Shown in pieces: positions 2,837 through 31,361 of a stretch of 33,091 nt of DNA. The translations under genes were made by a program, and so were the position numbers. Each line of letters begins with the position of its first letter. The first letter of the stretch is position 1. The stretch is taken from NCBI GenBank assembly GCA_035540375.1, contig DATLGO010000029.1:1-33091 (forward strand). The letters are read 5' to 3'. The DNA comes from Candidatus Thermoplasmatota archaeon (GTDB lineage: Archaea > Thermoplasmatota > SW-10-69-26 > JACQPN01 > JAJPHT01). The notes under the pieces were generated by a model that searched no databases, was not told where the DNA came from, and worked only from the letters and a program-made list of their open reading frames with translations.

Positions 2837-4351
2837 TCAGGCCACCCCCATCGTGAGGAGAAGGGCGCGGACGGGGCCGTCGAGGACGTCCGTGAGCAGG
2901 CGCGGCCAGAGGCCGTAGAGGGCCGTGAACAGGAGCAGGATCGCCAGGGGGACCGCCTCGTGCCAGTGCAGGTCGTACGTGTGTCCGTAGTGGACGCCGG
3001 GCTTCTCCGTGAACGGGCCGAAGAAGGCGCGCTGGAGCGCCCACAGATAGTACGCGGCGGAGAGCACGAGGTAGACGAGCGGGATCAGGATGTAGATCCC
3101 GAAGGCTTCCCAGGTGGCGCCGTAGATCTGGAACTCCGCGATGAAGGCCGCAAGCCCCGGGAGGCCGAGACCCGCCATCGAGAAGATGACCATGTACGTC
3201 GCGGACTTCGGCAGCTTCGCCGCGAGGCCGCCCATCGACGGGATGTCGCGCGTGCCGAGGTTGTGCGCGAGCACGCCGCACAGCATGAAGAGCGCCGGAC
3301 TGATGAAGCCGTGCGCGAGCATCATGAAGTTCGCTCCGACGAGGCCGAGCTCGCTGCCCGTGTGGACGGACGCCGCGATGCCAAGGAGCACGAGGCCCAT
3401 CGACCCGATGGACGAGTACGCGACGAGCTTCTTGTAGTCGCGCTGCACGAGGCAGATCGCGGAGGCGTAGATCATGCTCGCGACCGCGATCACGAACATG
3501 AGGGGCACGAGCCACTGCGCGCCGAAGGGCGCGACGGGGAGCGCGATGCGGATGAGGCCGTACGAGCCCATCTTCAGCAGCACGCCCGCGAGGAGCACCG
3601 AGCCCGCCGTCGGCGCCTCGACGTGCGCGTCGGGGAGCCACGTGTGGAAGGGGAAGACGGGGAACTTCACCGCGAAGCCCACGAAGAGCGCGAGGAACAC
3701 GATCTGCTGGAAGCCCTGGCTGAAGCGGCCGTTCGCGGCCACGATGTCCTCGATGGCGAAGGAGCGCGCGCCGGACGGGAATGCCTCGAAGTACAGCGCC
3801 ATGAAGGCGAGCAGCATCACGAGCGAGGCCGTGAACGTGTAGATGAAGAACTTGATCGCCGCGTACTTCTTCCTCGGGCCGCCCCAGATGGCGATGAGGA
3901 AGTACATCGGGATGAGCACGAACTCCCAGAAGACGTAGAACAGGAAGAGGTCGAGCGCGCTGAACACGCCGAGGACGGCCGCGTTCAGGATCATGAGCAT
4001 CGCGTGGAACGTGGAGGCGCGCTCCGTCTGGTCCCAGGCGAAGACGATGCCGAGCGTGACGAGGAGCGCCGTCAGGAAGAACATCGGCGCGCCGAGGCCG
4101 TCGAGACCGAAGATGATCTGGATGCCGAGGCCCGGGATCCACTGGTACTTCTCGTAGAAGCCGTAACCGGTCGCGGTCTTCGGGGCGTCGGCGAGCGTGA
4201 TGAGGAGGTACGACGCGATCGCGAGCGGCACGAGGCTCGTCGCGAGCGCGACGACGCGCGCGATGCGGTGATCCTTCCGGCCGATCGCGAGCGTGAGGCC
4301 GGCGCCCGCGAGGGCGCTCAGGATGGCGATGGAGACGAGAGGCAATTCCAT
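2837..4351 (-). CDS. nuoM: NADH-quinone oxidoreductase-like subunit M (antiporter-type)
   Basis: 504 residues with about 14 membrane helices. The essential helix-5 glutamate is in FWEFVLIPMYFLI (Glu143), and the sequence FHTWLPDAHVEAPTAGSVLL with the following LLKMGSYG is the proton-channel signature of NuoM. It pumps protons as part of the membrane arm. The ATG at 4351 abuts the nuoL stop, with GGAGGG a few bases upstream, so the pair is almost certainly co-translated. Nothing in length or motifs departs from the family. Confidence 0.96.
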   Translation of the reverse strand: MELPLVSIAILSALAGAGLTLAIGRKDHRIARVVALATSLVPLAIASYLLITLADAPKTATGYGFYEKYQWIPGLGIQIIFGLDGLGAPMFFLTALLVTLGIVFAWDQTERASTFHAMLMILNAAVLGVFSALDLFLFYVFWEFVLIPMYFLIAIWGGPRKKYAAIKFFIYTFTASLVMLLAFMALYFEAFPSGARSFAIEDIVAANGRFSQGFQQIVFLALFVGFAVKFPVFPFHTWLPDAHVEAPTAGSVLLAGVLLKMGSYGLIRIALPVAPFGAQWLVPLMFVIAVASMIYASAICLVQRDYKKLVAYSSIGSMGLVLLGIAASVHTGSELGLVGANFMMLAHGFISPALFMLCGVLAHNLGTRDIPSMGGLAAKLPKSATYMVIFSMAGLGLPGLAAFIAEFQIYGATWEAFGIYILIPLVYLVLSAAYYLWALQRAFFGPFTEKPGVHYGHTYDLHWHEAVPLAILLLFTALYGLWPRLLTDVLDGPVRALLLTMGVA

Positions 4352-6508: not shown

Positions 6509-6509
6509 C

Positions 6510-6830
6510 TTACCACCTCAGGCTGCGGGCGCGTTCGGTGTCGATGTTCTGCATCAGGCGGAACAGGTTGACGAGGATCGCGAGGCCGACCGCGGCCTCG
6601 GCGGCGGCGAGCGCGATCGAGAAGAGCGCGAACGCGTAGCCGGTGCTCGTCTGGAACATGGACGAGAACGCCGCGAAGTTGAGGTTCGCCGCGTTCAGCA
6701 TGATCTCGATGCTCATGAGCAGGCGGATGCCCGAGCGTTGCGTGATCATGCCGTAGACGCCGATCGCGAAGAGCGCGGCGGAGAGCGCGACGACCCAGCC
6801 GCCGGTGATCGGCGGGAAGCCCTCGAGCAT
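6510..6830 (-). CDS. nuoK: NADH-quinone oxidoreductase-like subunit K
   Basis: 106 residues with three membrane helices, as usual for NuoK. The family motif LLMSIEIMLNAANLNFAAFS holds the conserved helix-2 glutamate, and the FSIALAAAEAAVGLAILV segment holds the helix-3 glutamate; both belong to the E-channel. The ATG overlaps the nuoJ2 stop by one base (ATGA) and follows AGGAGG. The stop is a TAA one base before nuoL. Confidence 0.96.
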   Translation of the reverse strand: MLEGFPPITGGWVVALSAALFAIGVYGMITQRSGIRLLMSIEIMLNAANLNFAAFSSMFQTSTGYAFALFSIALAAAEAAVGLAILVNLFRLMQNIDTERARSLRW

Positions 6831-7141
6831 CAGGAATCCTCCTTCTGGGCGAGGACGAGCGCGCCGATGAGCGCGGCGATGAGCGCGACGGAAAGCAGCT
6901 CGAAGGCGAACACGAGGGGCGGCTCGGCCGCGGTGCCCGTCTGCTTGAAGAGCTGCGCCGTGACGCCCGTCAGGTTCTCGCGGCCCTCGAGCGTGCCCTG
7001 GTCGGGGTGCTCGACGGGGCCGGCCGGGCCGAGCGCGGTGTAGGGGTTCCACGCGTTCGTGAACAGCGCGGCAAGCGCCAGGATGACGAAGACGAGGATG
7101 GCGGCCGTCCACTTGAGGTCGGTCTTGGTCTGCTCGTTCAG
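6830..7141 (-). CDS. nuoJ2: NADH-quinone oxidoreductase-like subunit J, second part (NuoJ2), apparent CTG start
   Basis: About 103 residues: one helix near the N terminus (TAAILVFVILALAALF), a polar stretch, then a C-terminal helix (ELLSVALIAALIGALVLAQ). This is the pattern of the separate C-terminal half of NuoJ seen in haloarchaea, where nuoJ is split. No ATG, GTG or TTG exists in frame between the preceding reading frame and the first helix. The best start is the CTG at 7141-7139, which overlaps the nuoJ1 stop (CTGA) and has GGAGGG six bases upstream. It should insert next to NuoK. The product is clear; the start codon is inferred. Confidence 0.85.
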   Translation of the reverse strand: MNEQTKTDLKWTAAILVFVILALAALFTNAWNPYTALGPAGPVEHPDQGTLEGRENLTGVTAQLFKQTGTAAEPPLVFAFELLSVALIAALIGALVLAQKEDS

Positions 7142-7992
7142 GCGGATCCCTCCTTCTTCTTCGTGCCGGCGACCGTCTGCGTCTCCGTTCCGTAGACGCC
7201 GTCGTCGATGCTCACGCCGTAGAGGTTGCCGGGCTCGCGCACGGGCTTCCTCGGGTTCGTGTCCACGAGGCTCTTCATGGGGCCCACGCCGACCGCGGGC
7301 GTCGCCGTCTGGAGGTCCTCGACGCTCTCGACCGAGAAGCCGGGCGGAAGGTCCAGCTCGTCGAGCGAGTGCGGGCGCTCCTGCGGGAGCGTGAGCATCA
7401 CCGTGAACAGGATGAGCGTGATGACCGCGCCGACGTACACGAGGATCTGGATCGCGGCCAGGAACTCGGCGCCGACGAGGAGGAAGAACGCCGCGACGCC
7501 GATGAGGAGCGCCGCGAGCCAGACCGTCGCGTGGATGTTCTCGCGCACGGAGACGACCTTGAGGCCCGCGAACACCATGAGGAGCGCCGTCGCGAAGAAG
7601 CCCGTGAGCATCGCGCCCGCGACGATCGCGAGGCCGCCGAGCCCGACGGCCGCGAGGAGGGCCCAGATCGTGATCTCCTTCTCGCGGACGAGGACGAAGA
7701 TCTGCATCGCGGAGCCGAGGACGAGACCCGCGAGGACGCCTGCGAGACCCCAGCTCGGGAGACCCGCGAGGTAGCCCGCGGCGCCGAGCGCGAGGACGCC
7801 GCCCGCAAAGAGCGTGCCGGCGCGGCGGCGGTCGTCGGAGCGCGCGCCGTTCCAGAAGCCCCATCCCGCGCCGCCCGCGAGGACGGCGAGGACTGCGTAC
7901 GCGAGGTAGGTCGCCATCTGGCTTCCGCCCTCGGGCGCGTAGTTGTTCAGGGGAGACCCTTCGACGAACGCGATCACACTGAGTCCCGTCAT
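7138..7992 (-). CDS. nuoJ1: NADH-quinone oxidoreductase-like subunit J, first part, with extra N-terminal membrane domain (NuoJ1)
   Basis: 284 residues. The canonical NuoJ core is residues about 130-203: FFATALLMVFAGLKVVSVRE, then LVGAEFLAAIQILVYVGAVI, the highly conserved NuoJ signature. Before it is an unusual hydrophobic region of about 100 residues (26-127, about four helices), and after it a polar tail of about 80 residues rich in Pro, Asp and Lys. NuoJ subunits normally start close to the core. The ATG at 7992 has GGAG about 11 bases upstream; an internal ATG at 7917 (Met26) is an alternative that drops a polar leader. It lies 21 bp after nuoI and overlaps nuoJ2. Confidence 0.88.
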   Translation of the reverse strand: MTGLSVIAFVEGSPLNNYAPEGGSQMATYLAYAVLAVLAGGAGWGFWNGARSDDRRRAGTLFAGGVLALGAAGYLAGLPSWGLAGVLAGLVLGSAMQIFVLVREKEITIWALLAAVGLGGLAIVAGAMLTGFFATALLMVFAGLKVVSVRENIHATVWLAALLIGVAAFFLLVGAEFLAAIQILVYVGAVITLILFTVMLTLPQERPHSLDELDLPPGFSVESVEDLQTATPAVGVGPMKSLVDTNPRKPVREPGNLYGVSIDDGVYGTETQTVAGTKKKEGSA

Positions 7993-8013
7993 GGTGGTCC
8001 GCTCCGCGCGCTC

Positions 8014-8454
8014 CTAACCGGCCTTGGCCTCGTTTTCGCGTTCAAGCTCGAGCTGGCCCTCGCGCTTCGAGAGCTCGTACGAGTCGTAGTCGAAGACGCC
8101 GCGGTCGTACTCGGAGAGCTTGAATTCCTTGTCGAGCCGGATGGCGTCCGTGGGACACGTCTCCTCGCAGAGGCCGCAGTAGATGCAGCTCACGATGTCG
8201 ACGCGCGGGAAGATGGCGCGCTTGTTCTTCGGCGCCTGGTAGTCGAGGGCCTCCATCTGGCAGCTCGCGTTCGGGCACACCATCGAGCACGTGGTGCACC
8301 CGACGCAGAGGTCGAGATAGAGCTTGATGCGGCCGCGCCAGTTCTCCGGCACGTCGCGCATCTCCTCGGGGTATTCGACCGTCACGGGGGCCTTCGTCAT
8401 GGACGTGAGGGTCTCCTTGAATCCCTTGGCGAAGGCGAGGATCGGTACGCGCAT
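8014..8454 (-). CDS. nuoI: NADH-quinone oxidoreductase-like subunit I (two 4Fe-4S ferredoxin domain)
   Basis: 146 residues. Two clean 4Fe-4S motifs are present: Cys50, 53, 56, 60 (CVGCTTCSMVCP) and Cys90, 93, 96, 100 (CIYCGLCEETCP), which hold clusters N6a and N6b and pass electrons to NuoB. The amphipathic N-terminal part (residues 1-20) lies against NuoH in known complexes. With no NuoEFG in the operon, NuoI is a plausible docking point for another electron donor such as ferredoxin. The ATG is one base from the nuoH stop. Confidence 0.96.
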   Translation of the reverse strand: MRVPILAFAKGFKETLTSMTKAPVTVEYPEEMRDVPENWRGRIKLYLDLCVGCTTCSMVCPNASCQMEALDYQAPKNKRAIFPRVDIVSCIYCGLCEETCPTDAIRLDKEFKLSEYDRGVFDYDSYELSKREGQLELERENEAKAG

Positions 8455-8455
8455 C

Positions 8456-9484
8456 TCAGAAACCTCCCTTGAGGAAGTAGACCTCGGCGACGGCGACGAC
8501 GAGGTTGACGACGGACAGCGGGAAGAGGACCTTCCAGCCGATGCTCAGGAACTGGTCCGCGCGCACGCGGGGGAGCGTGAACCACGTCGCGAGCACGATG
8601 AAGACGAAGACGGCCACCTTCGCGAGGAACACGAGGATGCCGACGAGGTTCCAGAGCCACGACCCGCCCGTGGGGAGGAAGGGCATCGTCCAGCCGCCGA
8701 AGTAGAGCAGCACCGTGAGGGCGCTGATGAACACGATGTTCGCGAGCACGCCGACGAAGAAGACGCCGAACTTCATGCCCGAGTACTCGGTGAAGTAGCC
8801 GGCCACGAGCTCCGATTCCGACTCGGGCAGGTCGGTCGGGACGACGCCCGCCTTCGCGAGGGCCGCGACGAAGAAGATGAGCGCGCCGAGCGGCTGCAGG
8901 AGGATGAACCAGAGGTGGTGCTGCGCGAGCGCGATGCCTGTCGTGCTCATCGTGCCCGCGAGCATCACGACCGCGATCGCGGAGAGGATGAGCGGGATCT
9001 CGTAGGCGACGTCGAGCGCGGCCGCGCGCATCGCGCCGTACATCGAGTACTTGTTGTTCGACGCCCAGCCCGCGACGATCTCGCCGATCGGCGCGACCGC
9101 GCTGATCGCGAGGATGAACAGGATGCCGACCGAGAGGTCGCTCACGATGACCTGGTTCGAGAAGGGCAGGGGAACGAAGGCGACGATGATGGGGACGATC
9201 GCGAGATAAGGCGCGATGCGGAAGCCCCAGGGGTCGGCGCGGGACGGGATCACGTCCTCCTTGGACATGAACTTGATACCGTCCGCGAGGAACTGCAGGA
9301 GGCCGAAGGGACCGACGCGGTTCGGGCCAAGACGCGTCTGGATGCGCGCCATGATCTTGCGCATCACGTAGGACATGATGCCGCCGACGCCGAGCACGAA
9401 GCCGACGGCGAGGAGCGCGCCGATGAACCACGCGTAGGGCGGGGCGATGAGCGTCTCGATGAGGTTCGTCAGGGGGTCCGCCAT
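8456..9484 (-). CDS. nuoH: NADH-quinone oxidoreductase-like subunit H
   Basis: 342 residues with about eight membrane helices. Diagnostic motifs are [20 protein letters not shown] (residues 53-72), the acidic cytoplasmic loop [21 protein letters not shown] with the following YEIPL, and [20 protein letters not shown]. NuoH links the quinone cavity to the membrane-arm proton path. It begins at ATG 9484, four bases after the nuoD stop. Length and motifs are standard. Confidence 0.97.
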
Positions 9485-9488
9485 GGGT

Positions 9489-10709
9489 TCACCGGTCGAG
9501 GTCGCCGAGGATGATGTCGATCGAGCCGAGCGAGACGACGAGGTCGGGGATCTTCAGGCCGACGACCATGTCGTGCAGGGGCGCGAGGTTCGAGAGCGTG
9601 GGCGCGCGCCACTTGAAGCGGTAGGGTTTGGAGGTGCCGTCCGAGACGACGAGGCAGCCGTACTCGCCGCGGCCGCCCTCGATCGCGGCGTACACTTCGC
9701 CGGGCGGGGCCTTGAAGCGGTGCTGCCGGGCGCCCTCGCCGACCTCGGGCGAGACGTAGTCGCCCGTCGCGGGCATCTCCGCGATGCACTGGCGGATGAT
9801 CCGGATCGACTCCGTCATCTCCTTCATGCGGACGATGAAGCGGTCGTAGGCGTCGCCGCCCGTGCGGACGGGCACGTCGAACTTCATGCGGCCGTAGACG
9901 TCGTACGGGTGGGCCTTGCGCTGGTCGTACGCGACGCCGGAGCCGCGAAGCATCGGGCCCGAGCAGCCGTAGTTGATCGCGAGGCGCTTCGGGAGGACGC
10001 CGACCTTCTTCGTGCGGACGACGAAGATGTCGTTCTCCGCGAGGAGGTTCCAGTACTCCTTGAGCCGCTCCTCCATGTAGTCGCAGTACCGCGCGGCCTC
10101 GTCGAGGAAGCCCGGCGGCAGGTCGTTCTTGACGCCGCCGATACGGTACCAGTTGTACGTGAGGCGCGCACCCGAGAGGCGCTCGAGGAGCGCGATCGCG
10201 CCTTCGCGGTCGCGCATGCACCAGAAGAAGGGCGTGACGGCGCCCGAGTCCAGGCAGAAGGGACCGAGCCACAGGAGGTGCGACGCGACGCGCTGGATCT
10301 CGGCCGTGAGGACGCGGATGTACTGCGCCTTCTCCGGGACCTGCACGTTGCCGAGCACTTCGCAGGCGCGGACGAACGCGTAGTTGTTGTGCATGGCCGC
10401 CGCGTAGTCGAGGCGGTCCGTGAGCGGGATGCCCTGGAGGTACGATCCGTCCTCCCACAGCTTTTCGACGCCGCGGTGCAGGTAGCCGATCACGGGATCG
10501 ACGCCGCGCACGATCTCGCCGTCGAGGAGCACGCGGAGCCGGAGCACGCCGTGGGTCGACGGGTGCTGCGGGCCGACGTTGAGGAGCACGAGGCGCTGCT
10601 TCTCGGCCGCGGACTTCGTCGCGAGGCGCGCGAGCGCGGGCGGGAACTCGGCGGAAGCGGGCGCGGTCTTGAGGGTGACGTTGTCGGGCGTGATCGCGGG
10701 CGTCGTCAT
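9489..10709 (-). CDS. nuoD: NADH-quinone oxidoreductase-like subunit D (49 kDa type)
   Basis: 406 residues. NVGPQHPSTHGVLRL (about 44-58) carries the quinone-site histidines His49 and His53; VIGYLHRGVEKL, the central WCMRDREGAIALLERLSGAR and the C-terminal SLGSIDIILGDLDR are family hallmarks. The subunit is homologous to the large subunit of NiFe hydrogenases but lacks the nickel cysteines. The first 35 residues are an Ala/Pro-rich leader. nuoC and nuoD are separate here, not fused as in E. coli. The ATG overlaps the nuoC TAA by one base. Confidence 0.97.
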   Translation of the reverse strand: MTTPAITPDNVTLKTAPASAEFPPALARLATKSAAEKQRLVLLNVGPQHPSTHGVLRLRVLLDGEIVRGVDPVIGYLHRGVEKLWEDGSYLQGIPLTDRLDYAAAMHNNYAFVRACEVLGNVQVPEKAQYIRVLTAEIQRVASHLLWLGPFCLDSGAVTPFFWCMRDREGAIALLERLSGARLTYNWYRIGGVKNDLPPGFLDEAARYCDYMEERLKEYWNLLAENDIFVVRTKKVGVLPKRLAINYGCSGPMLRGSGVAYDQRKAHPYDVYGRMKFDVPVRTGGDAYDRFIVRMKEMTESIRIIRQCIAEMPATGDYVSPEVGEGARQHRFKAPPGEVYAAIEGGRGEYGCLVVSDGTSKPYRFKWRAPTLSNLAPLHDMVVGLKIPDLVVSLGSIDIILGDLDR

Positions 10710-11644
10710 TACCAGCCCTCCTCTTCCTTGAACGAGACGACGTCGCGGCCCTTCGCGTCCATCGCGACGAACTGCTCGCGCGTCACGTCGTAGTCCTTCC
10801 GGAGCGGGTAGCCGACCCAGCCGTCCGGGAGGAGGAGGCGGCGGAGGTCGGGGTGGCCCTCGAAGGCCACGCCGAAGAGGTCGAACACCTCGCGCTCGAG
10901 CCAATCGGCGCCGCGCCAGAGCGGGACGACCGAGGGGACCGAGGGCAGCTCGCCCGTCTCCAGCTCGCGCGGAACCTTCGTCTTGAAGGAGAGGCGCTCG
11001 CCGTGGCCGTAGCCGTAGAGGTTGTACACGACCTCGATGCGGTCCGGCGGATAGTCGATCGCCGTGAGGCACGCGAGGTGGTCGAAGCCGAACTCCTCCT
11101 TCGCGGCGCGCAGCACCTTGAGGACGGAGTTCGTGTTCAGGTGGATCTGCGGGATGTCGGTCTGGAGCCCGACGTCGACGACGTCCGACGGGAAGGCGGT
11201 GCGGAAGCGTTGGACGAGCGGAAGCGCGAGCGCCTTCTCGCGCGCGAATTCCTCGGGCGACTTCTCCTTCTTCGCCTCGGCGGCGGGCGCGGCGCCCTCG
11301 GGAGCCTTGGCCGCCATCGCGGCCTTGGCGGCCTGCGACTTCGCCTTCGCGATCGCGATCTTCTCGTCCTTCGTGAGCGTCGCGGGATCCTTCGCCATGA
11401 GCGCCTGGATCTCGACCGGGAGGCCGGCGCCCGCGGGCGCCGCGGTCGGAGCGGGCGCGGCGGGGGCGGCGCCCGGCGTCCTGAAGTTCAGCGGCTCGCC
11501 GCGCGTCTTCTTGAAATTGTAGCGCGCGACCGCGGCCTTCTGGTTCTTCGTGAGCTTCGTCTTGTCCGCGTCGTGGAGCGCGAGGAGCTCGGCCATCTCC
11601 TCCTGCGTGTAGTCCTCCACGTTGCCCGCGTCGGGAAGCGCCAC
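10709..11644 (-). CDS. nuoC: NADH-quinone oxidoreductase-like subunit C (30 kDa type) with long N-terminal extension
   Basis: 311 residues against about 150-220 for most NuoC proteins. The real NuoC fold is residues about 140-311, with FGFDHLACLTAIDYP, YNLYGYGHGERLSFKTKVP and the signature WLEREVFDLFGVAFEGHPDLRRLL (two overlapping pieces), then PLRKDYDV. Residues 1-139 are an added segment: two similar Lys/Ala helices (KLTKNQKAAVARYNFKKTRG near 30-49 and TLTKDEKIAIAKAKSQAAKA near 89-108) separated by a Pro/Ala linker. The GTG start abuts the nuoB stop. The core is certain; the role of the extension is unknown. Confidence 0.95.
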   Translation of the reverse strand: MALPDAGNVEDYTQEEMAELLALHDADKTKLTKNQKAAVARYNFKKTRGEPLNFRTPGAAPAAPAPTAAPAGAGLPVEIQALMAKDPATLTKDEKIAIAKAKSQAAKAAMAAKAPEGAAPAAEAKKEKSPEEFAREKALALPLVQRFRTAFPSDVVDVGLQTDIPQIHLNTNSVLKVLRAAKEEFGFDHLACLTAIDYPPDRIEVVYNLYGYGHGERLSFKTKVPRELETGELPSVPSVVPLWRGADWLEREVFDLFGVAFEGHPDLRRLLLPDGWVGYPLRKDYDVTREQFVAMDAKGRDVVSFKEEEGW

Positions 11645-12187
11645 TCAGCGCCCTCCCTTGAGGTAGCGCTCGAGACCGGGCGAGATGCGCGGGTCGGCGC
11701 GGATCTTCTCCTGCAGGCGGATGAGGCCGTCGAGGAGCGCCTCGGGGCGAGGCGGGCAGCCCGGGACGTAGACGTCCACGGGGATGATCTTGTCCACGCC
11801 GTGCACCGTCGAATACGAGTTCTGGTAGGGTCCGCCGCAGACGGCGCACGCGCCCATCGCGATGACCCACTTCGGCTCCGGCATCTGGTCGTAGAGCTTG
11901 CGGATGCGCGGCGCCATCTTCTTCGTGACCGTGCCGGGCACGATCATGAGATCGGCCTGGCGGGGCGTCGCGCGGAACACCTCGCTTCCGAAGCGCGCCA
12001 TGTCGTAGTGCGGGCCGAGCGTCGCGAACATCTCCATCGCGCAGCACGCGAGACCGAAGGAGAGCGGGAAGAGCGAGTTCGAGCGCGCCCACTTGAGGAG
12101 CTTGTCGACGGACGAGAGGAGGATGTTCGGGTCCTGGTCGTCCGGGACGCCCGCCGCGAGATCGCCGGTCGTGATCAGCTTTGCCAC
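11645..12187 (-). CDS. nuoB: NADH-quinone oxidoreductase-like subunit B (cluster N2 subunit)
   Basis: 180 residues, standard for NuoB. The N2 4Fe-4S ligands are all visible: the tandem Cys48-Cys49 ([10 protein letters not shown]), Cys114 in MGACAVCGG and Cys144 in [13 protein letters not shown]2 reduces the quinone. The GTG start at 12187 lies 13 bases inside the end of nuoA and follows a run of Gs; no better start exists before the conserved region. The first 25 residues are variable. Confidence 0.96.
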
Positions 12188-12558
12188 TGGAGAGCCCCCT
12201 TGCGCCACGCGTAGACCCAGCCCGCGAGGACGATCACGACGAAGATGACCATCTCGAAGAGGTACGCGCCGATGCCGACGGACTGGATGAAGGCCGGGTC
12301 CTGCGTGAGCGACAGCGCCCACGGGATCATGAACACGGCCTCGATGTCGATGATGAGGAAGATGAGGACGTACATGTAGTACTGCACGTCGATGGGGCCG
12401 CGGGCGGACCCGACGGGCACCTCGCCGGATTCGTAGGTCGAGAGCTTCCCGGGAACGAGACGGCGCGGGCCGATCAGCTTCGTGAGCTGGAGGGTGGCCC
12501 ACACCATGACGAAGCCGAGCCCCGCCGTGACGAAAACGGGAACGTAGTTCCAGAGCAC
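12175..12558 (-). CDS. nuoA: NADH-quinone oxidoreductase-like subunit A
   Basis: 127 residues from the GTG at 12558, with three membrane helices. [20 protein letters not shown] is the family loop with its conserved acidic residues, followed by [22 protein letters not shown], the classic NuoA second helix. The frame is open up to a GTG at 12645, but that would add 29 polar residues and place the TATA box (12609-12617) inside the gene. Starting at 12558 gives [11 protein letters not shown], like normal NuoA N termini, and a leader of about 30 bases. It is the first gene of the 12-gene operon. Confidence 0.93.
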
Positions 12559-12608
12559 TTCGCCTGCCGTGGGGAACCCTCCGGGGGACGGTGCGGGGAT
12601 GGCCCATT

Positions 12609-23039: not shown

Positions 23040-23062
23040 GGGCGTGCGAGGGACAGGTGAGC

Positions 23063-23068
23063 CTTAAA
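23063..23068 (-). promoter_or_regulatory. TATA-like box of the S8 protease gene
   Basis: TGTTTAAGGC on the minus strand (23070-23061) centres about 25 bp before position 23041, two bases from the ATG at 23039. This implies a leaderless transcript. Confidence 0.5.
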
Positions 23069-23140
23069 CATTGTCGGATGTGGCTCGAAGCGCCTGTCGC
23101 GGACGGCGGCCGCGTCGCGCCCGACGGAGCCGTCGCAAAC

Positions 23141-23148
23141 CCTTTTCC
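23141..23148 (+). promoter_or_regulatory. Weak T-rich box upstream of the dgcN-like gene
   Basis: CCTTTTCC at 23141-23148, preceded by purines (GCAAA), is about 26 bp before the ATG at 23171. It is a weak TATA match but correctly placed for a leaderless start. Confidence 0.35.
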
Positions 23149-23170
23149 CCCGGACCCCCGTCGCCGGGTC

Positions 23171-24295
23171 ATGCGACTCCTCGTCCTCGCGCACGACGCG
23201 TGGGGCCCCGCCACGTCGAAGACCGGGCACGTCCTCGTGAAGTCCTCGCGCGACGGATGGTCGAAGGACGAGGTCGTCGCGATCGTCGACCGGTCCAAGG
23301 CCGGCCGCGACGCGGGCGAGTTCGCCTCGGTCGCGAAGGGCATCCCGGTCGTCGGCTCCGTGCGCGAGGGGCTCGACCTCAAGCCGGACGCGCTCGCGAT
23401 CGGGATCGCGCCCGTCGGGGGACGGCTTCCGGACTTCTGGCGGCCCGATCTCGAGGCCGCGATCGGCGCGGGGCTCACGATCCTGAACGGGCTCCACCTC
23501 TTCCTCGGCGACGACCCGTCGCTCGCGGCCCTCGCCGCGAAGCACGGGGCGAAGCTCGTGGACGTCCGGCGCCCGCCGCCCGAAAAGCGCATCGCGACGG
23601 GCGAAGGCGCACTTGTCGACGCGCTCGTCGTGCTGCACGTGGGCACCGACTGCTCGTCGGGGAAGATGACGGCCGCGGTCGCGCTCGCACAGGAGGCGCG
23701 CCGCCGCGGCCTTGATGCGGGCTTCGTCGCGACCGGTCAGACGGGTATCATGATCGGCGCCGACGCGGGCGTCGCGATCGACGCCGTCGTCTCCGACTTC
23801 GTCGCGGGGACCGTGGAGAAGCTGGTGCTCGACGTCGCCGCCCAGGGCCGGACGATCATCTTCGTCGAAGGGCAGGGCTCGATCACGCATCCCGCGTACG
23901 CGGGCGTCACGTCGTCGCTCCTCATGGGCGCGTTTCCCGACATCCTGGTCGTGAGCGACGAGCCGCGGCGCGCCTGCTACACGTTCCCGAGCGCCTTCCC
24001 GTTCCCGAAGAACGACGCCGCGAAGGAGATCGCGCTCAACGAGGCGCTCCTCACGGCGACGACCGCGGGTCGCGCCGCGTGCCTCGCGCTCGTGACGCGG
24101 GGTCTCGACGACGCGGCGTACGCGGACGAGGTCCGCAGGGCCGAGCGCGCGACGGGGCTTCCGGCGGGGGACGTCTTCCGCGGCGACGCGCCGAAGCTCC
24201 TCGACGCGATCCTCAGGGCCGCCGAGGCGCGCGGGGTCTGGAAGGACGGGCGGCCGGTCCATGGCGCGAAGCGGCGCCGGATGGGGATCGCGTGA
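23171..24295 (+). CDS. dgcN: DUF1611 protein, DgcN-like (D-glutamate N-acetyltransferase type)
   Basis: 374 residues in the DUF1611 architecture: an N-terminal Rossmann-like part (1-130) and a C-terminal P-loop domain with VGTDCSSGKMTAAVALAQEA (Gly158 to Lys165), then ATGQTGIMIG and VEGQGSITHPAY. Family members named DgcN acetylate D-glutamate in a bacterial D-amino-acid route together with the racemase DgcA, and the next gene here is a DgcA-type enolase-superfamily enzyme overlapping by four bases. That pairing is the main reason for the name; the substrate in this archaeon is not shown by the sequence. The last 15 residues are basic. Confidence 0.8.
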   Translation: MRLLVLAHDAWGPATSKTGHVLVKSSRDGWSKDEVVAIVDRSKAGRDAGEFASVAKGIPVVGSVREGLDLKPDALAIGIAPVGGRLPDFWRPDLEAAIGAGLTILNGLHLFLGDDPSLAALAAKHGAKLVDVRRPPPEKRIATGEGALVDALVVLHVGTDCSSGKMTAAVALAQEARRRGLDAGFVATGQTGIMIGADAGVAIDAVVSDFVAGTVEKLVLDVAAQGRTIIFVEGQGSITHPAYAGVTSSLLMGAFPDILVVSDEPRRACYTFPSAFPFPKNDAAKEIALNEALLTATTAGRAACLALVTRGLDDAAYADEVRRAERATGLPAGDVFRGDAPKLLDAILRAAEARGVWKDGRPVHGAKRRRMGIA

Positions 24296-25329
24296 TCGCG
24301 CTGACGTGGCGCGCGATCGACACGCCCACGGCGAGGGCGTTCAAGATCAGCGCCGGGACGATGACCTCGGCGCGGAGCGTCATCGTGGAGGCGCGCGACG
24401 ACGAGGGCCGCGTGGGCTACGGCGAGGCGACGCCGAGCGCGCGCGTGACGGGCGAGAGCGAGGAATCCATCGCGAAATTCCTCGAATGGGCCCGCGGGGA
24501 GGTCAAGGACATCGACCCCGACGATCCGCGCCCGTTCCTCGCGGAGATGGCGACGAACATCTGCGGCAACGCGGGCGCGCGATGCGGCGTCGACCTCGCG
24601 CTCCACGACCTCTGGGGAAAGCGCGCCGGGAAACCCGCGCGCGCCCTCCACGGCATCGGGGACGGGGCGATCGAGATGCCGCTCACGGTCTCGATGGACC
24701 TCCCCGAGACGATGGCGCGCGAAGCGAAGGAATACTTCGCGCGCGGCTTCGACGTCCTCAAGGTCAAGCTCGGGCAGGCGCGCAACGACGAGCCGCGCAT
24801 CGCCGCCGTGCGTCGCGCGGTTCCGCAGGCCCGCCTGCGCGTCGACGCGAACGAGGGCTGGTCGCGCGAGGAGGCGCGCAGGCTCGCGCCCGTGCTCTTC
24901 CGCCACGGCGTCGAGTTCATGGAGCAACCGCTCGCGCGGAACGATCTCACGGGACTTGCGGAGCTTTCGCGCACGAGCGAGGTGCCCGTCGTCGTCGACG
25001 AATCCGTCGCGGACGCAACCGACGTGGCGCGCCTCGTCGATCATCGCTTCGCGGGCGGCGTGAACGTGAAGCTGCAGAAGGCGGGCGGCCTCAAGCCCGC
25101 GCTCGACGCGATCCTCGCCGCGCGGGCGGCGGGCTTCGGGACGCAGGTCGGCTGCAACGTGGAGACGGGCGTCGGCATCGCGGGCGCCGCGCAGCTCATC
25201 CCGCTCCTCGACTGGGCCGACCTCGACGGGAACCTCCTCCTTGCGCGCGATCCGTTCGAGGGCGTCCGCGGCGAACGCGGACGCATCGCGGTCCCCGCGG
25301 CGCCCGGCCTCGGCGTGCGCCCCTCGTGA
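24292..25329 (+). CDS. dgcA: Enolase-superfamily epimerase, DgcA / dipeptide epimerase type
   Basis: 345 residues, muconate-lactonizing subgroup of the enolase superfamily. The catalytic KxK is Lys157/Lys159 (VLKVKLG), the metal ligands are Asp185 (RVDANEGW), Glu211 (FMEQPL) and Asp236 (VDES), and the second-face lysine is Lys260 (NVKLQKAGG). This is the set found in L-Ala-D/L-Glu epimerases and in N-acetyl-D-glutamate racemase DgcA, which differ in substrate only. The start is the GTG of a GTGA overlap with the DgcN-like gene, so both are made together. The DgcN neighbour favours the N-acetyl-glutamate role over peptide recycling. Confidence 0.87.
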   Translation: MIALTWRAIDTPTARAFKISAGTMTSARSVIVEARDDEGRVGYGEATPSARVTGESEESIAKFLEWARGEVKDIDPDDPRPFLAEMATNICGNAGARCGVDLALHDLWGKRAGKPARALHGIGDGAIEMPLTVSMDLPETMAREAKEYFARGFDVLKVKLGQARNDEPRIAAVRRAVPQARLRVDANEGWSREEARRLAPVLFRHGVEFMEQPLARNDLTGLAELSRTSEVPVVVDESVADATDVARLVDHRFAGGVNVKLQKAGGLKPALDAILAARAAGFGTQVGCNVETGVGIAGAAQLIPLLDWADLDGNLLLARDPFEGVRGERGRIAVPAAPGLGVRPS

Positions 25330-25426
25330 CGGACGCCGCCGCAAGCCGGCCGGGACATGTCACCGCGCCCAGGGTCGGGGGAGGCTTCAAGCTCCGTGAG
25401 ACGCTGTGTCGTGCGGGAGGCTCACC

Positions 25427-27151
25427 GTGCACGTCCAGCGCAGCGTCGCGTGGCTCGTCATCGTCTCGTTCGTCCTCGCCCCCGCCGCGGCCACGCACGG
25501 CCACGTGGAATGGGAAGCCGAGGAATCCAATAGGCCGACCCTCGACCTCGCGGGTCAGAAGAATGGCGTCCCCGAGGCGTACCGCGACCGCGGCGCGACC
25601 CCGGGCGGGCTGCGCCTCCTCGACGACTTCTGGGACAACACCGGCGGACACGCCGCCGTTCCGGGCGTCGAATACCCCCTCTCGGTCCTCGGGGGTGAAC
25701 CCCCCCGGGGTTCGACCTTTGAAAACCATGGCGACACGCGCCGCGCCACGGGCGGCCTCGCCGCGCCCCTCATCGTTCCCGGCGCGAGCCGCTTCCTCGC
25801 GTGGTACGGGTATTGGGACGACAAGAACGAGGATGGCCGCATCGACGAGTTCGCGACGACGTCCGCCCTCAACGAGTGGACGCTCACGCCCGGCGCGAAG
25901 CTCTACTCCTACGTCGAGCCGGGGCCGCGCCCGACGCTCACCGCGAAGACGCGGCCCGCCGCCACCGACCCCGACTTCACGTACGTCGATTCCGGCCCCG
26001 CGCTCCTGCGCCTCTACAAGAGCGGCTCCCAGTTCCTCGGCGAGGTCCTCGTCTTCCTCGACGGGTCGCTCCTGCAGACGCTCCGCGTCGACACCGTCAC
26101 GGATCCCGTCCTCGCCCCCTCGGGGCCCGCGCGCCCCTACACGCCGCGCCCCGATTCGCTCGTGGACATCGACATCTACGCGTCGCTCGCGCCCGGCCCC
26201 GTCGAGGCGCTCTACGCGGCCACGGCCGCGCCTCTCGTGCACGAGTTCGCCTCGCCGAGCCAGGGCCTCTGCCCCACGAACTGCCGCGGCCTCCCATGGT
26301 CCCCCGGACCCGTCGCATCGCCCCTCGTGGGCCCCGCGTACGCGCTCGTCTACGAGCGTTACCTGCAGGAGACGCACCCGGATTCCCGGTCCTCCGCCGC
26401 GGGCCGGCTCCACGAGTTCCGGGAAGCGCATCGCGGATGGGCGGACCTCATTGCGCTCTACGCGACGCCGAACGATCCCTACACGCCCGACGTCGCGACG
26501 CCCCTGCCGGGGCGCGGCGCGAACGGACTTCCCGCGATGATTCCCGGCTACCTTGGCTTCGAGGTCCGCACGGGTCTGTGGCGCGATGTCACCGACGACG
26601 GATTCGTGGGGCGCGTCGGAAGCGACCCGTACGACCACGGAAACCGCCCCATCGCGGACCGCTACGAGGACTCGGCGGGCGAGTACCTGGGCGTCTACGC
26701 GCGCGACGAGACCGGACGCGAGATCCGCGGGTCCGCGCCGGTCGGAGGGCGCGAGATGGTCGTGACGTTCCGCCCCGTCCCGAGCTGGGGCGAAGCCGGC
26801 GTCCTCGTGACGTGGGACACCGGCACGCCGGCCGTGGACGTCCTCCCGTTCCTCTGCGTGTTCACGATCCCGCCTCCCTCGGGATGCCCCCCGCTGGGGG
26901 CATTTCTCTCCGACCCCCCGAGGAGCCTGGGTCACGTGACGGGCGACGCGGTCGTCACCGTCACCGCGGTCGCCGGCGCCGTCGACCCCGGTCGCTACGC
27001 GACGAACGGATTCCTCTTCCTTCCAACCGGCACGCAGAACTTCGCGATCGAGGTCTGCACGGAACCCCTCGTGATCCGGCACGTCCTGAACGGCGACGAG
27101 ATCGACGAGCCCGTCCGCGACTGCGACGTCATCGACCGGCTGGAGACCTGA
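25427..27151 (+). CDS. Secreted protein of unknown family with Ca-loop motifs (first of two tandem paralogs)
   Basis: 574 residues. A signal peptide (SVAWLVIVSFVLAPAAA, about 6-22) is followed by a large soluble region and no membrane anchor. I recognise no family. Visible: WEAEESNRPTLDLAGQKN near the front, an EF-hand-like loop DKNEDGRIDEF (Asp132, Asn134, Asp136), a second acidic loop DVTDDGFVGR with DPYDHGNRPI near 385-408, LVDIDIYASLAPGPVEALYA in the middle, and conserved cysteine pairs LCPTNC, EVC and RDC that could form two disulfides. Two extra cysteines (about 480-490) are absent in the paralog. GTG 25427 follows GGGAGG. The paralog starts three bases downstream. Confidence 0.78.
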   Translation: MHVQRSVAWLVIVSFVLAPAAATHGHVEWEAEESNRPTLDLAGQKNGVPEAYRDRGATPGGLRLLDDFWDNTGGHAAVPGVEYPLSVLGGEPPRGSTFENHGDTRRATGGLAAPLIVPGASRFLAWYGYWDDKNEDGRIDEFATTSALNEWTLTPGAKLYSYVEPGPRPTLTAKTRPAATDPDFTYVDSGPALLRLYKSGSQFLGEVLVFLDGSLLQTLRVDTVTDPVLAPSGPARPYTPRPDSLVDIDIYASLAPGPVEALYAATAAPLVHEFASPSQGLCPTNCRGLPWSPGPVASPLVGPAYALVYERYLQETHPDSRSSAAGRLHEFREAHRGWADLIALYATPNDPYTPDVATPLPGRGANGLPAMIPGYLGFEVRTGLWRDVTDDGFVGRVGSDPYDHGNRPIADRYEDSAGEYLGVYARDETGREIRGSAPVGGREMVVTFRPVPSWGEAGVLVTWDTGTPAVDVLPFLCVFTIPPPSGCPPLGAFLSDPPRSLGHVTGDAVVTVTAVAGAVDPGRYATNGFLFLPTGTQNFAIEVCTEPLVIRHVLNGDEIDEPVRDCDVIDRLET

Positions 27152-27154
27152 CCC

Positions 27155-28834
27155 TTGAGATCCACCGCCTTCGCCTTCGCGTTCGCCCTGGCCTTCGCCT
27201 CGCCGCTCGCCGCCGCCTCCGCCGGCGACGTGAGGTGGGAGGCGGAGGAGCCGAACCGGATCGCGCTCGACCACGCCGGCCAGCGCAACAACGTCGACGT
27301 CGCCTACGCGGATCGCGGCGCAACCCCGGCCGGTCACCTCATCCTCGACGGCTTCTACGATCACATGGGCGGCGTCGTGCTCCCGAACGCCGGCGCGTTC
27401 ACGGGCGCGCGCGATTCGTCCATCGATCAGAAGGGCAACCTCCGGCGCTCCTCCGGCGGCGAGGCGCCCGACGTCATCCTCCCGGGCGCGGGCCGCTTCT
27501 TCGCATGGTACGGAACGTGGAAGGACGCGGACGGCGACGGTCGCATCCGCGTGAACCCCACGCTCCCCGGCCTGCCCGCGGGCAACGAGTTCGCGCTCGC
27601 CTCGAAGTCGCTCTATGGATACGTCGAGCCCGGCCACCGCGCGCCCGCGACGTCGACCTCGAGCGGCGGAAGCGACGCGCCCGACTTCAGCTACCACCGC
27701 GGCACGTACATCATGCCGCTCTTCCAGTCCGGCGGCATCACGCCGTACGACCTCACGGTCTTCCTGGACGGGAGCCTCGTGCAGGCCATCACGGTCGAAT
27801 CCGTGGGCGATCCGATCCTCTCGCCCGGCGATACCGGCAAGCCCTACACGCTCAAGGAGACCACGCTCGTCGACATCGACGTCCACGCGGCCGTCGCGCC
27901 CGGGCCCGTCGCCTCCCTGTATGCCGTCACCGCGGGCCCCCTCGTCACCCCCGCAGCCTCGCCGAACCGCGGCTTCTGCCCGCAGAACTGCCGGTTCCCG
28001 CCCGTGGCGCCGCCGCCGGTCGCAAGCGAGCCCGTGGGCGTCGCGCAGGGGGCCGTGTTTCCCCGCTACGCGCAGGAGACGAGCGCGGGCAGCGCCTCGA
28101 CCGCGGAGGGGCGCCTCGCCGACTACCAGGAGGCGTTCCGCGCGTGGGCCGACCTCGTGCCGCTCGCCGTGGAGCCGCACTCCTTCCTCGCGCCCGAGCA
28201 CGTGTCGCCCCTCCTCGGACGCACCGACGAAGGCGCCCCAGCGATGCGATCGGGATACTTCGGCTTCCATCTCTGGACGGGTCTCTGGAAGGACCTGAAC
28301 GGGGACGGATTCGTCGGCGTCGCGAGCGCGGATCCGTACGATCACGGCAACCGGCCGATCCCCGATGATTACGTGGGCGGCTTCCCCGAGTTCGTGCCCG
28401 TCTGGGGCGTGAACGCGCAGAACCACACCCTCGGGCCACAGACGCTCCTGCAGCTCACCTACCGTCCGATCCCGGACTGGGGCCCCGGCGTCATGGTCAC
28501 CGATCGACTCGGCACGCCGCAGCCCGCCGTCCTCGGGAACGGCGAATCGATCCCGCCGGAACCGCTCCCCCGTCTCATGGGCGCGCCGACCGTGCGGGAT
28601 CCATCGCTCTGGTTCGTGACGGGGAACGCCACGATCGCGATGCGCGGCCTCGGGGCGCCCGTCGACACGGGCCGCTACTACGCGTTCGACTACCTCTTCC
28701 TCCCCGTCGGGACGAACGGCTTCGCGTTCGAGGTCTGCCACGAGTGGCTCACGATCGCGCACGCGTCCGGCGGCGAAACCCGCGACGAGACCGTGCGCGA
28801 CTGCGACGTGATCGGTCGCCTCGCGGGGACCTGA
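27155..28834 (+). CDS. Secreted protein of unknown family with Ca-loop motifs (second of two tandem paralogs)
   Basis: 559 residues, colinear with the preceding product from end to end: WEAEEPNRIALDHAGQRNN, GRFFAWYGTWKDADGDGRI (Asp124, 126, 128 form a dockerin or EF-hand-like loop), TTLVDIDVHAAVAPGPVASLYA, FCPQNC, TGLWKDLNGDGFVGV with DPYDHGNRPI, and a shared end EVC...RDCDVIGRL. A signal peptide (FAFAFALAFASPLAAASA, 6-23) directs export and no anchor is visible. The four shared cysteines are probably disulfide-bonded. The TTG start lies three bases after the upstream stop; no clear ribosome site separates them. It meets recQ tail to tail with no base between. Confidence 0.78.
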   Translation: MRSTAFAFAFALAFASPLAAASAGDVRWEAEEPNRIALDHAGQRNNVDVAYADRGATPAGHLILDGFYDHMGGVVLPNAGAFTGARDSSIDQKGNLRRSSGGEAPDVILPGAGRFFAWYGTWKDADGDGRIRVNPTLPGLPAGNEFALASKSLYGYVEPGHRAPATSTSSGGSDAPDFSYHRGTYIMPLFQSGGITPYDLTVFLDGSLVQAITVESVGDPILSPGDTGKPYTLKETTLVDIDVHAAVAPGPVASLYAVTAGPLVTPAASPNRGFCPQNCRFPPVAPPPVASEPVGVAQGAVFPRYAQETSAGSASTAEGRLADYQEAFRAWADLVPLAVEPHSFLAPEHVSPLLGRTDEGAPAMRSGYFGFHLWTGLWKDLNGDGFVGVASADPYDHGNRPIPDDYVGGFPEFVPVWGVNAQNHTLGPQTLLQLTYRPIPDWGPGVMVTDRLGTPQPAVLGNGESIPPEPLPRLMGAPTVRDPSLWFVTGNATIAMRGLGAPVDTGRYYAFDYLFLPVGTNGFAFEVCHEWLTIAHASGGETRDETVRDCDVIGRLAGT

Positions 28835-31063
28835 TCACGGCGCGCTCGCGACGACCGCGAGGATGTCCTCGCCGAACATCTCGGCCTTCTTCGGGCCGAT
28901 CCCCTTCACCGCGAGGAGCTCGGGCACCGTGCGCGGACGCGCGACCGCGATCGCCTCGAGCGTCGCGTCGCTCGCGATCACGTACGCGGGCACCCGGGCC
29001 TCGCGCGCGAGCCTGCCGCGCCACGCTTTGAGGGCCTCGAGAAGCGGCGCCGCCTCCGCGGGCACCTCCGCGCGCGGCGCGCGCTCGCGCGGCTCCGCGA
29101 GGGTCTCGTGCGCGGCGGCCGGCGCGCCTCGCGACGGCGGCCTCGCGACAGGTTTCGGGTCGCCGTCGCGCGCAAGCCGCCACGTCTCGCCGCCGTGCGC
29201 GAGCGTCTCCTTCCGGATGGCGCCCTCGGCCGCCAGCTGCTTCAGCGCGCCCTTGATCGCCGCGTCCGAGCGCAGCGCGAGCGCGCCGAAGCCCGGCTTC
29301 GACGCGAGCCAATCGCCGCCCGACGTATCGCCGCGCAGCATCTTCACGAGATTCGCCTCGCCGAGACCGCGCAGGCTCCCGAGCGCGTCCAGGATCGCGC
29401 GCCGCACCGCGGCGTCGTCGGGCGCGATCCGCGCGTCCGCGACGTGCGCGAGCCCGAGGCACCGGTCGCACGCGCCGCACGTCGCCGGCACGTCCGGGTC
29501 GCCGAAATGGCGGCGGAGGGCCGCGCGGCGGCAGCCCTTCGATTCGGCATAGGCGACGACCTCGCGCGCGCGGGCCTCCGAGAGCGCCTTGTAGCGCGAA
29601 AGCACCTCCGAAACCGAGCCCTTCGCGTCGACCCGCCGGAAGAGCAGGTCGCGATCCCACGTCTCGTACCCGACCGCGCCGCGATCCGACATCTCCGCGA
29701 GCCGCGCCTCCACGTCCTCGGGCCCGACCCCGAGGATCGGCGCGAGCGCGAACACGTCCGTCGCCTGGCCCCGGAGCGCGACGAGCGCGGGATCCTGCGC
29801 GCGATCGATCGCGATCGTCCGCGGCACGTCCGGAAGCCGCGCGAGCCGGCCCGCCTCGACAAGGATGCTCAGCGCCACCCGCGGTCGGACCTCCTCGCGG
29901 TCGAGCGCGTCGAGCTTCGCGGGATCGACGACCGCGAAGTCGCCGCGCGCGCCCTCCGCGACGAGCCGCTCGACCGCCGCGACAAGGTCGAGCGAAGGCA
30001 GATCCCGCCGCGCGTGCGAAACGAGTTGCGCGCCGTCCGCGGGCGCCGCGACGAGGAGCGCGCGCGCCGGAAGCCCGTCGCGGCCCGCGCGGCCCGCCTC
30101 CTGATAGTACGCCTCGAGGCTCGACGAGGGGTCGTGGTGCGCGATGAATCGGATGTCCGGCTTGTCGACGCCCATCCCGAACGCGATCGTCGCGACGAGC
30201 ACCCGGACCTCGCCCGCCATGAAACGGTCCTGCACGGCCGCGCGGTCGAGGATTCCCGCGTGGTACGACGCCGAAGCGATGCCGAGCGACGCGAGGGCGC
30301 CCGCGATGAGGTCCGCCTTGTCGCGGCTCGACACGTACACGACGCCCTGCCCCTCGGCGTCGCGGCAGAACGTCGCGACGTGCGCGAGCTTCTCGTCCGC
30401 GTCGCGCGCAAGCACCGCCTCCCAGCGGATGTTCGGTCGGTCCACGCTCGCGCGCACCACCGTCATCGCGCCGAGGCGCGCGAGGATGTCCTCCGCGACC
30501 CGCGGCGGCGCCGTCGCCGTCACCGCGAGCACGGGGGGCGACCCGAGACGCCGCCGAGCGTCCGCAAGCGCCAGGTAATCCGGGCGGAAGTCATGCCCCC
30601 AAAGAGAAACGCAATGCGCCTCGTCCACCGCGAAGCGCTTCACGCCCGCGCGCTTGAGCGCCGCCACGAACCCCGCCTGCCGCAGACGCTCCGGCGCCGC
30701 GTAGACGAGGCGATACCGCCCTGCCGCGATGTCGTCCACCGCGCGCCGCGCCTCGAACGGCGCCATCTCCCCCGTGACCGCGACCGCCGCCGCGCGCATC
30801 GGCGCGGGAAGCGAGTCGAGCTGGTCCTTCATGAGCGCGATGAGCGGGCTCACGACGAGCGTCACGCCCGGCGAGAGCACGGCCGGAAGCTGGAAGAGGA
30901 GCGACTTGCCCGACCCCGTCGCGAGGATCGCGAACACGTCCTCGCCCCGAAGCACCCGCACGAGCGCCTCGTCCTGGCCCGGCCGCAGCGACGCGTGGCC
31001 CAGGTGGCGCTTCACCAGCGCGGCCGCTTCCGCGATCTCGTCCGGCGTGACGGGGCGCGACAT
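28835..31063 (-). CDS. recQ: RecQ family ATP-dependent DNA helicase with HRDC domain
   Basis: 742 residues. Helicase motifs run in order: motif 0 LRPGQDEAL, Walker A ATGSGKSLLF (Lys53), SPLIALMKDQ, the DEAH box (147-150) followed by the RecQ aromatic loop CVSLWGHDFRPDY, VTATA, then IAFGMGVDKPDIRF and YYQEAGRAGRDG. A four-cysteine zinc site (GCRRAALRRHF ... CGACDRC) and a winged RQC-like part follow, and residues about 670-742 are an HRDC domain ending in AVKGIGPKKAEMFGEDIL. It unwinds DNA 3' to 5' in recombination and repair. ATG 31063 precedes the first motif; the frame stays open upstream through a Gly-Pro-rich repeat that I treat as noncoding. A weak TTGAAGAA box at about 31090-31097 suits a leaderless start. 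Confidence 0.95.
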   Translation of the reverse strand: MSRPVTPDEIAEAAALVKRHLGHASLRPGQDEALVRVLRGEDVFAILATGSGKSLLFQLPAVLSPGVTLVVSPLIALMKDQLDSLPAPMRAAAVAVTGEMAPFEARRAVDDIAAGRYRLVYAAPERLRQAGFVAALKRAGVKRFAVDEAHCVSLWGHDFRPDYLALADARRRLGSPPVLAVTATAPPRVAEDILARLGAMTVVRASVDRPNIRWEAVLARDADEKLAHVATFCRDAEGQGVVYVSSRDKADLIAGALASLGIASASYHAGILDRAAVQDRFMAGEVRVLVATIAFGMGVDKPDIRFIAHHDPSSSLEAYYQEAGRAGRDGLPARALLVAAPADGAQLVSHARRDLPSLDLVAAVERLVAEGARGDFAVVDPAKLDALDREEVRPRVALSILVEAGRLARLPDVPRTIAIDRAQDPALVALRGQATDVFALAPILGVGPEDVEARLAEMSDRGAVGYETWDRDLLFRRVDAKGSVSEVLSRYKALSEARAREVVAYAESKGCRRAALRRHFGDPDVPATCGACDRCLGLAHVADARIAPDDAAVRRAILDALGSLRGLGEANLVKMLRGDTSGGDWLASKPGFGALALRSDAAIKGALKQLAAEGAIRKETLAHGGETWRLARDGDPKPVARPPSRGAPAAAHETLAEPRERAPRAEVPAEAAPLLEALKAWRGRLAREARVPAYVIASDATLEAIAVARPRTVPELLAVKGIGPKKAEMFGEDILAVVASAP

Positions 31064-31129
31064 GACGCACGCGCAAGGCGGCCACGCTTCTTCAAGGCGA
31101 TGCCGAGGTCGCGGGGGGAGGTCGCGCAG

Positions 31130-31272
31130 GGCGGGCGCCGGGCGTCGGGATTCGGGACCGGGGCCGGGTGTCGGGCGTCGGGATTCGGGACCGGGTCCGG
31201 GTCCGGGTCCGGGTGTCGGGCGTCGGGATTCGGGTCCGGGTCCGGGCGTCGGGACCGGGTCCGGGACCGGCG
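31130..31272. repeat. G-rich minisatellite upstream of recQ
   Basis: GGGCGTCGGGATTCGGG occurs at 31140, 31173 and 31218; between copies lie GGGTCC or GGGACC hexamers in varying number (spacing 33 and 45 bp). On the plus strand GGG runs at 31187, 31193, 31199, 31205 and 31211 are each three bases apart, a textbook G-quadruplex pattern. Confidence 0.8.
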
Positions 31273-31280
31273 GTTGGCTG

Positions 31281-31361
31281 GCGCGCGCCGCCCGCACGGC
31301 GCGCGCCGCGCGCGCCGCGCGCGATGTGCGTGATGTGCGTGATGTGCGCGCCGCGCGCGAG
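31281..31361. repeat. Alternating GC tract with three 9-bp GATGTGCGT repeats
   Basis: 81 bp of mostly alternating C/T and G (GCGCGCGCC, CGCGCGCC and similar) enclose GATGTGCGT at 31323 and 31332 and GATGTGCGC at 31341. Long alternating pyrimidine-purine runs of this type can adopt Z-DNA. No gene is supported on either strand. Confidence 0.6.

Follow-up and report, generated by a model that had tools for sequence, protein, structure and literature searches.

The 33,091-nucleotide stretch analysed here, referred to as the window, is contig 29 (C29) of the genome of an uncultured archaeon (host genome, G000), a fragmented draft of 3.13 Mb that is 97% complete. Two genes, A and B, lie in tandem on its forward strand. 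Gene A (25406..27151, +) encodes a secreted two-domain calcium-loop protein of 581 aa when read from an upstream GTG at 25406, or of 574 aa from the GTG at 25427, and it is matched by the family profile at 25436-27148 (599.5 bits). Gene B (27155..28834, +; 594.5 bits) encodes a secreted paralog of 559 aa; its TTG start lies 3 bp past the stop codon of A, and the two genes are likely to be part of one transcription unit. The preliminary description had presented them as colinear tandem ORFs of 574 and 559 residues, and indeed both are present; BLASTP aligns them along the full length at 46% identity (561 aligned positions, 402 bits, E 2e-138). The shared features that it had listed, i.e. the exact word DPYDHGNRPI, four common cysteines and the C terminus RDCDVI-RL, were all found in A and B.

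Third-position GC on the forward strand is 0.91-0.92 for A and B, which indicates that this strand is the coding one; an antisense ORF of 1188 aa (25196-28762, -), opposite both genes, was considered to be a high-GC artefact. The identity between A and B is 0.60, 0.66 and 0.55 at codon positions 1, 2 and 3, respectively, with saturated dS, a pattern which points to constraint at the first and second positions. We called the signal peptides of A and B by eye and with a hydropathy heuristic; that of B is a predicted Sec-type peptide covering residues 1-23 (27155..27223, +), with cleavage after an AxA motif. AlphaFold, run twice on the sequences of the pair alone, gave pLDDT values of 26 and 31 and no usable fold.

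The genes found near A and B in the window are unrelated housekeeping genes: the Nuo complex, RecQ and an MR/MLE enzyme. The complex I (Nuo) run extends from 1319 to 12607 (-) and contains genes of the 20, 30 and 49 kDa, H, J-like, K, L, M and N types. Just upstream of A, a gene for a DUF1611 protein overlaps that of the MR/MLE enolase-superfamily enzyme (23057-25329, +), and the two plausibly form an operon. The RecQ ORF (28835-31297) opens with a Pro-Gly rich repeat of PTPGPGPESRRP units at 31200-31297 (-), and for this reason the true RecQ start is probably located further in.

Elsewhere in the genome, on several contigs, family genes have housekeeping genes of archaeal type as neighbours, among them those for the thermosome, an RpoA-type RNA polymerase subunit, ArgRS and RNase HII. 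The closest PDB match of the host thermosome is 1a6d, which we take to be the thermosome of Thermoplasma acidophilum. In addition, the host genome carries a full archaeal 16S, only ~75% identical to haloarchaeal 16S. These two comparisons, together with the size of the phylum, make Thermoplasmatota the likely placement of the host. Contamination is unlikely given these neighbours, which, together with the purifying codon-position pattern, led us to reject an assembly artefact or contamination. Among the neighbour genes sampled, we saw neither a recurring partner gene beside family members nor consistent transporter or CAZyme-like genes.

A and B had been assigned to an unrecognised family, and this assignment stood: we obtained no convincing match for the pair, the family profile or the members in Pfam, NCBIfam, PHROGs, PADLOC or the PDB. 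Weak PDB matches to the anti-sigma factor RskA (E 0.054) and to a heme-binding protein (E 1.5) were short and were dismissed. Two findings that were expected to speak against a new family, a clear match to a known domain and the lack of any homolog, were not made, since sensitive profile searches returned no such match and homologs were found as ~80 paralogs in the same genome and in two genomes of the same order. The family is previously undescribed, and it is lineage-specific in one uncultured archaeon.

We observed 84 profile matches in the host genome, at ~80 loci, 68 of which cover most of the profile. The family amounts to 80 ORFs on 38 contigs, i.e. 131,775 bases (132 kb) or 4.2% of the genome. 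Slightly more than half of the members (43/80) are organized in 14 same-strand tandem arrays of 2-8 genes, with gaps that are often in the tens of bases, the largest being on C70 (8 consecutive genes) and C30 (7), and the others are scattered. The idea that a two-copy tandem is a special unit, with relatives always paired, does not hold, as relatives occur singly or in arrays with a maximum of 8 genes; the A/B pair is an ordinary two-gene array among ~80 family members, and its closest relative outside its own array in the tree is located at C4:51374-53179. Members are ~560-620 aa long with a fixed two-repeat architecture. Their identity averages 34.5% with a maximum of 62.9%, and they sit on long terminal branches; the absence of any pair above 63% together with these branches suggests that they are long-kept, specialised copies. 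Since the genome is a fragmented (short-read) draft, near-identical copies could be collapsed in the assembly. About 6 members are cut by contig ends, to be compared with ~9 expected under random breaks (220 ends x 4.2%), so that collapsed near-identical repeats are not indicated. Three copies are apparently frameshift-split or interrupted by a stop (C102:73371-75085, C15:32937-34556 and, with a TGA, C48:55269-56999) and look like decaying genes or draft sequencing errors.

We looked for the family in 390 genomes of the phylum and detected it in only three of them, the host and two genomes of the same order, G002 and G004; the remaining 387 gave no match, and none was found on plasmids, phages or viral contigs. 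G002 contains ~9-10 copies, mostly in one array, and G004 ~7. These proteins are diverged and longer (~690-900 aa), and they are likewise undescribed in the libraries searched. They nevertheless align colinearly with the host family over 489 columns (hhalign probability 100, E 5e-42), share with it the positions of the loop, the Glu and the DxD described below as well as the tandem arrays, and keep invariant most of the columns that are invariant in the host (G, D, E, PG, DxD, W, D, D, W, DxD). A tree built from 80 proteins places the 68 of the host, the 8 of G002 and the 4 of G004 in one group each, with a support of 99, so that the expansions in the three lineages are separate. The family is absent from G001, the closest genome by taxonomy (same GTDB family). 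G001 holds a second undescribed secreted multigene family, with the motif LGVWxDCNxDGYVGxADGAL, absent from the host and without Pfam match, at L115:5140-7113 (+), L116:6464-8329 (+), L117:5388-7247 (-), L118:4513-6399 (-) and on L121. It resembles the host family in being multigene and secreted and in its loop (W-x-D-C-N-x-D-G-Y-[VL]-G); only 31 columns, the loop alone, could be aligned, and we therefore treated it as a separate family.

A single domain occurs twice in each protein: when residues 88-262 of B are compared as a profile with residues 345-559, they align end to end over 152 columns with an E-value of 8e-8. When repeat 1 was compared with repeat 2 across lineages, we obtained E-values of 1.4e-6 and 3.6e-6, versus 2e-3 or worse for control non-domain segments; inside the G002/G004 set by itself the halves match weakly (E 6e-3). 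The pattern of the repeat is G-x-W-x-D-x-[DN]-x-D-[G]-x-[IV], followed later by an invariant Glu and a closing D-x-D. We consider that these two colinear repeats, each with its loop, Glu and closing DxD, define at the level of sequence a new superfamily which includes the G002 and G004 proteins.

Two calcium-loop-like motifs per protein had been announced; both were recovered in A and in B, and we observed that they are conserved family-wide. Residue invariance was scored over 60 host paralogs, with the numbering of B. In repeat 1, the calcium-type loop is DKNEDGRI in A (25820..25843, +) and DADGDGRI in B (residues 124-131; 27524..27547, +), with Asp or Asn at position 1 in 60/60, at position 3 in 58/60 and at position 5 in 60/60 paralogs. 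It is followed by Glu145, a candidate calcium ligand (27587..27589, +; 60/60), and by the closing D240-I-D242 (27872..27880, +), both Asp being found in 60/60; sequence comparison places the corresponding DID of A at 26165..26173 (+). The loop of repeat 2 is DLNGDGFVG in B (residues 380-388; 28292..28318, +), where D380 and G385 are invariant (60/60) and D384 is present in 58/60. In A this loop reads DVTDDGFVG (26585..26611, +) and is degenerate at position 3, with Thr where Asp or Asn is usual. Glu412, again a candidate ligand (28388..28390, +), is found in all 60 paralogs, and the repeat closes with D549-C550-D551 in B (28799..28807, +; D549 in 60/60, D551 in 59/60) and with DCD at the C terminus of A (27119..27127, +).

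The strict motif Dx[DN]xDG occurs 0-2 times per family protein, versus 0.027 times per shuffled protein, and 58/68 full-length members contain at least one. It is an established linear calcium site, mainly in exported proteins, which evolved by convergence in twelve or more unrelated families (PMC3123361), and because of this convergence the loop predicts calcium and not kinship. Indeed, EF-hand, dockerin and integrin-type loop proteins have the same D-x-[DN]-x-D-G-x-[ILV] spacing, but EF-hand and dockerin proteins are recognised by a helix-loop-helix or dockerin profile, and the host family matches neither model. We also noted a pattern, W-x-D-x-N-x-D-G...E, which we take to resemble SdrD_B or Cna_B-type domains; no member matched the Pfam models of these domains at E<=0.5.

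Eight cysteine columns behave as four pairs that are present or absent together among the 60 paralogs. The counts, running from both present to both absent, are 51-1-0-8 for C46/C53, 52-0-0-8 for C275/C279 and 44-3-2-11 for C466/C479, and C528/C550 are both found in 59/60; p-values for this covariation are optimistic, since the sequences are related. B is devoid of the pairs C46/C53 and C466/C479, and both A and B retain the second and the fourth pairs, which accounts for their four common cysteines. The second pair would form a disulfide in the linker between the repeats (CPTNC in A, 26270..26284, +; CPQNC with C275-C279 in B, 27977..27991, +), and C550, within the closing motif of B, probably pairs with C528. 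Covariation thus implies up to four putative local disulfides per protein, as expected of extracellular disulfides.

A signal-like hydrophobic N terminus was detected by the hydropathy heuristic in 75/80 members and a lipobox in ~15/80, and none of the 68 full-length members has a C-terminal hydrophobic anchor. The earlier statement that the proteins have no anchor is true of A and B but not of the family, in which ~15 paralogs are predicted lipoproteins. The mature proteins are acidic, with a median pI of 4.6, versus basic or neutral cytoplasmic proteins.

Based on these observations, we propose, with a probability of about one half, that the family is a repertoire, specific to this lineage, of calcium-stabilised proteins that are secreted or lipid-anchored and serve in binding or as a coat. 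Export, calcium and disulfides we infer from the sequences, and ligand binding is a guess based on how the family behaves. Each protein would cross the membrane by Sec, most members being released or held non-covalently and about one fifth possibly lipid-anchored at the lipobox cysteine. Outside the cell, it would fold into two domains that are homologous and, according to weak hints, mostly beta, each with a predicted Ca2+ site to which the loop (W-x-D-x-[DN]-x-D-G-x-[IV]), the invariant Glu and the closing DxD would contribute, and local disulfides would add stability to both. The conserved scaffold could then show variable loops, and the members would act together outside the cell in binding or as a coat (as adhesin-like or ligand-specific surface proteins); each gene may be specialised for its own ligand, instead of being a recent interchangeable copy.

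Exported repertoires are already known as a system in archaea. Adhesin-like proteins (ALPs) number 105 in M. ruminantium (PMC2812497), 49 in M. smithii and 42 in M. stadtmanae, and in these last two they represent 10-11% of the genome (PMC11532034). The ALPs of the gut methanogens Methanobrevibacter and Methanosphaera are, as in the host, a large exported paralog set in an archaeal genome. However, they are long, contain domains of the beta-helix and Big-type Ig kinds, and are as a rule anchored to the membrane or the wall, whereas the host proteins are of ~560-620 aa, are mostly anchorless and lack such matches: in 54 members, no beta-helix or Big/Ig-type Pfam domain was found at E<=0.5 beyond a single BigA_beta (E 0.25). 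The best reading by analogy is that the host family may be functionally like methanogen ALPs while unrelated to them in sequence. More tentatively, it may represent a calcium-dependent extracellular recognition superfamily which diversified separately within several lineages of a single archaeal order, with ~80 ligand-specialised members in one genome, and which would be unrelated in sequence to known adhesin or immune-type families.

The preliminary description had suggested, as a possibility, the extracellular binding or degradation of a polymer. As degradative proteins, the members would be extracellular enzymes of a new fold (e.g. polysaccharide lyases or hydrolases), amplified so as to act on a different substrate each, the loops being structural and invariant Asp, Glu, Arg and Tyr residues forming the active site. 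Many invariant polar residues do lie outside the loops (R98, D177, D205-S207, E308, D333, D393, R400 and Y406) and could be part of such a site; secretion without an anchor and the functional divergence of long-kept copies also agree with an enzyme. But no catalytic family was matched in Pfam, NCBIfam or the PDB, even by profile, the invariant Asp and Glu are mostly explained by the two repeated sites, and the neighbours sampled showed no consistent transporter or enzyme partner. We consequently hold degradation to be unlikely, and a binding function or a structural coat seems to be the better guess.

Alternatively, the proteins could be interlocking blocks of a calcium-dependent surface coat (S-layer-like or sheath), in which lipoproteins would anchor, released members would tile and copies would vary against viruses or conditions. 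Such a coat is consistent with the mixture of lipobox and anchorless members in one family, with the calcium-type loops and with the large share of the genome. Nevertheless, a coat usually requires a single dominant protein or a few of them, with which ~80 old, divergent copies fit poorly, and a non-exhaustive search revealed neither gene conversion nor an invertible expression site, which makes this arrangement rather improbable. Very improbable is a hypervariable antigen or receptor-decoy repertoire for fast switching against viruses or predators, which would suit a very large family with tandem arrays, expanded independently in three or more lineages. Recent duplicates and conversion tracts are the usual marks of switching libraries, but here the closest pair is only 63% identical and the number of members cut by contig ends (~6 versus ~9) does not indicate collapsed near-identical repeats.

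The binding or coat repertoire that we favour is new as a family and strongly expanded. Naming it makes a large group of hypothetical proteins easier to address, and its inferred two-site calcium architecture predicts Ca2+-dependent stability, four disulfide pairs and a location at the cell surface. It would be a second case, unrelated to the methanogen ALPs, and it leads one to ask what makes exported repertoires so large in some archaea. Since it takes up ~4% of the genome and has expanded separately in relatives, the family is probably important for the way in which these uncultured cells interact with their environment.
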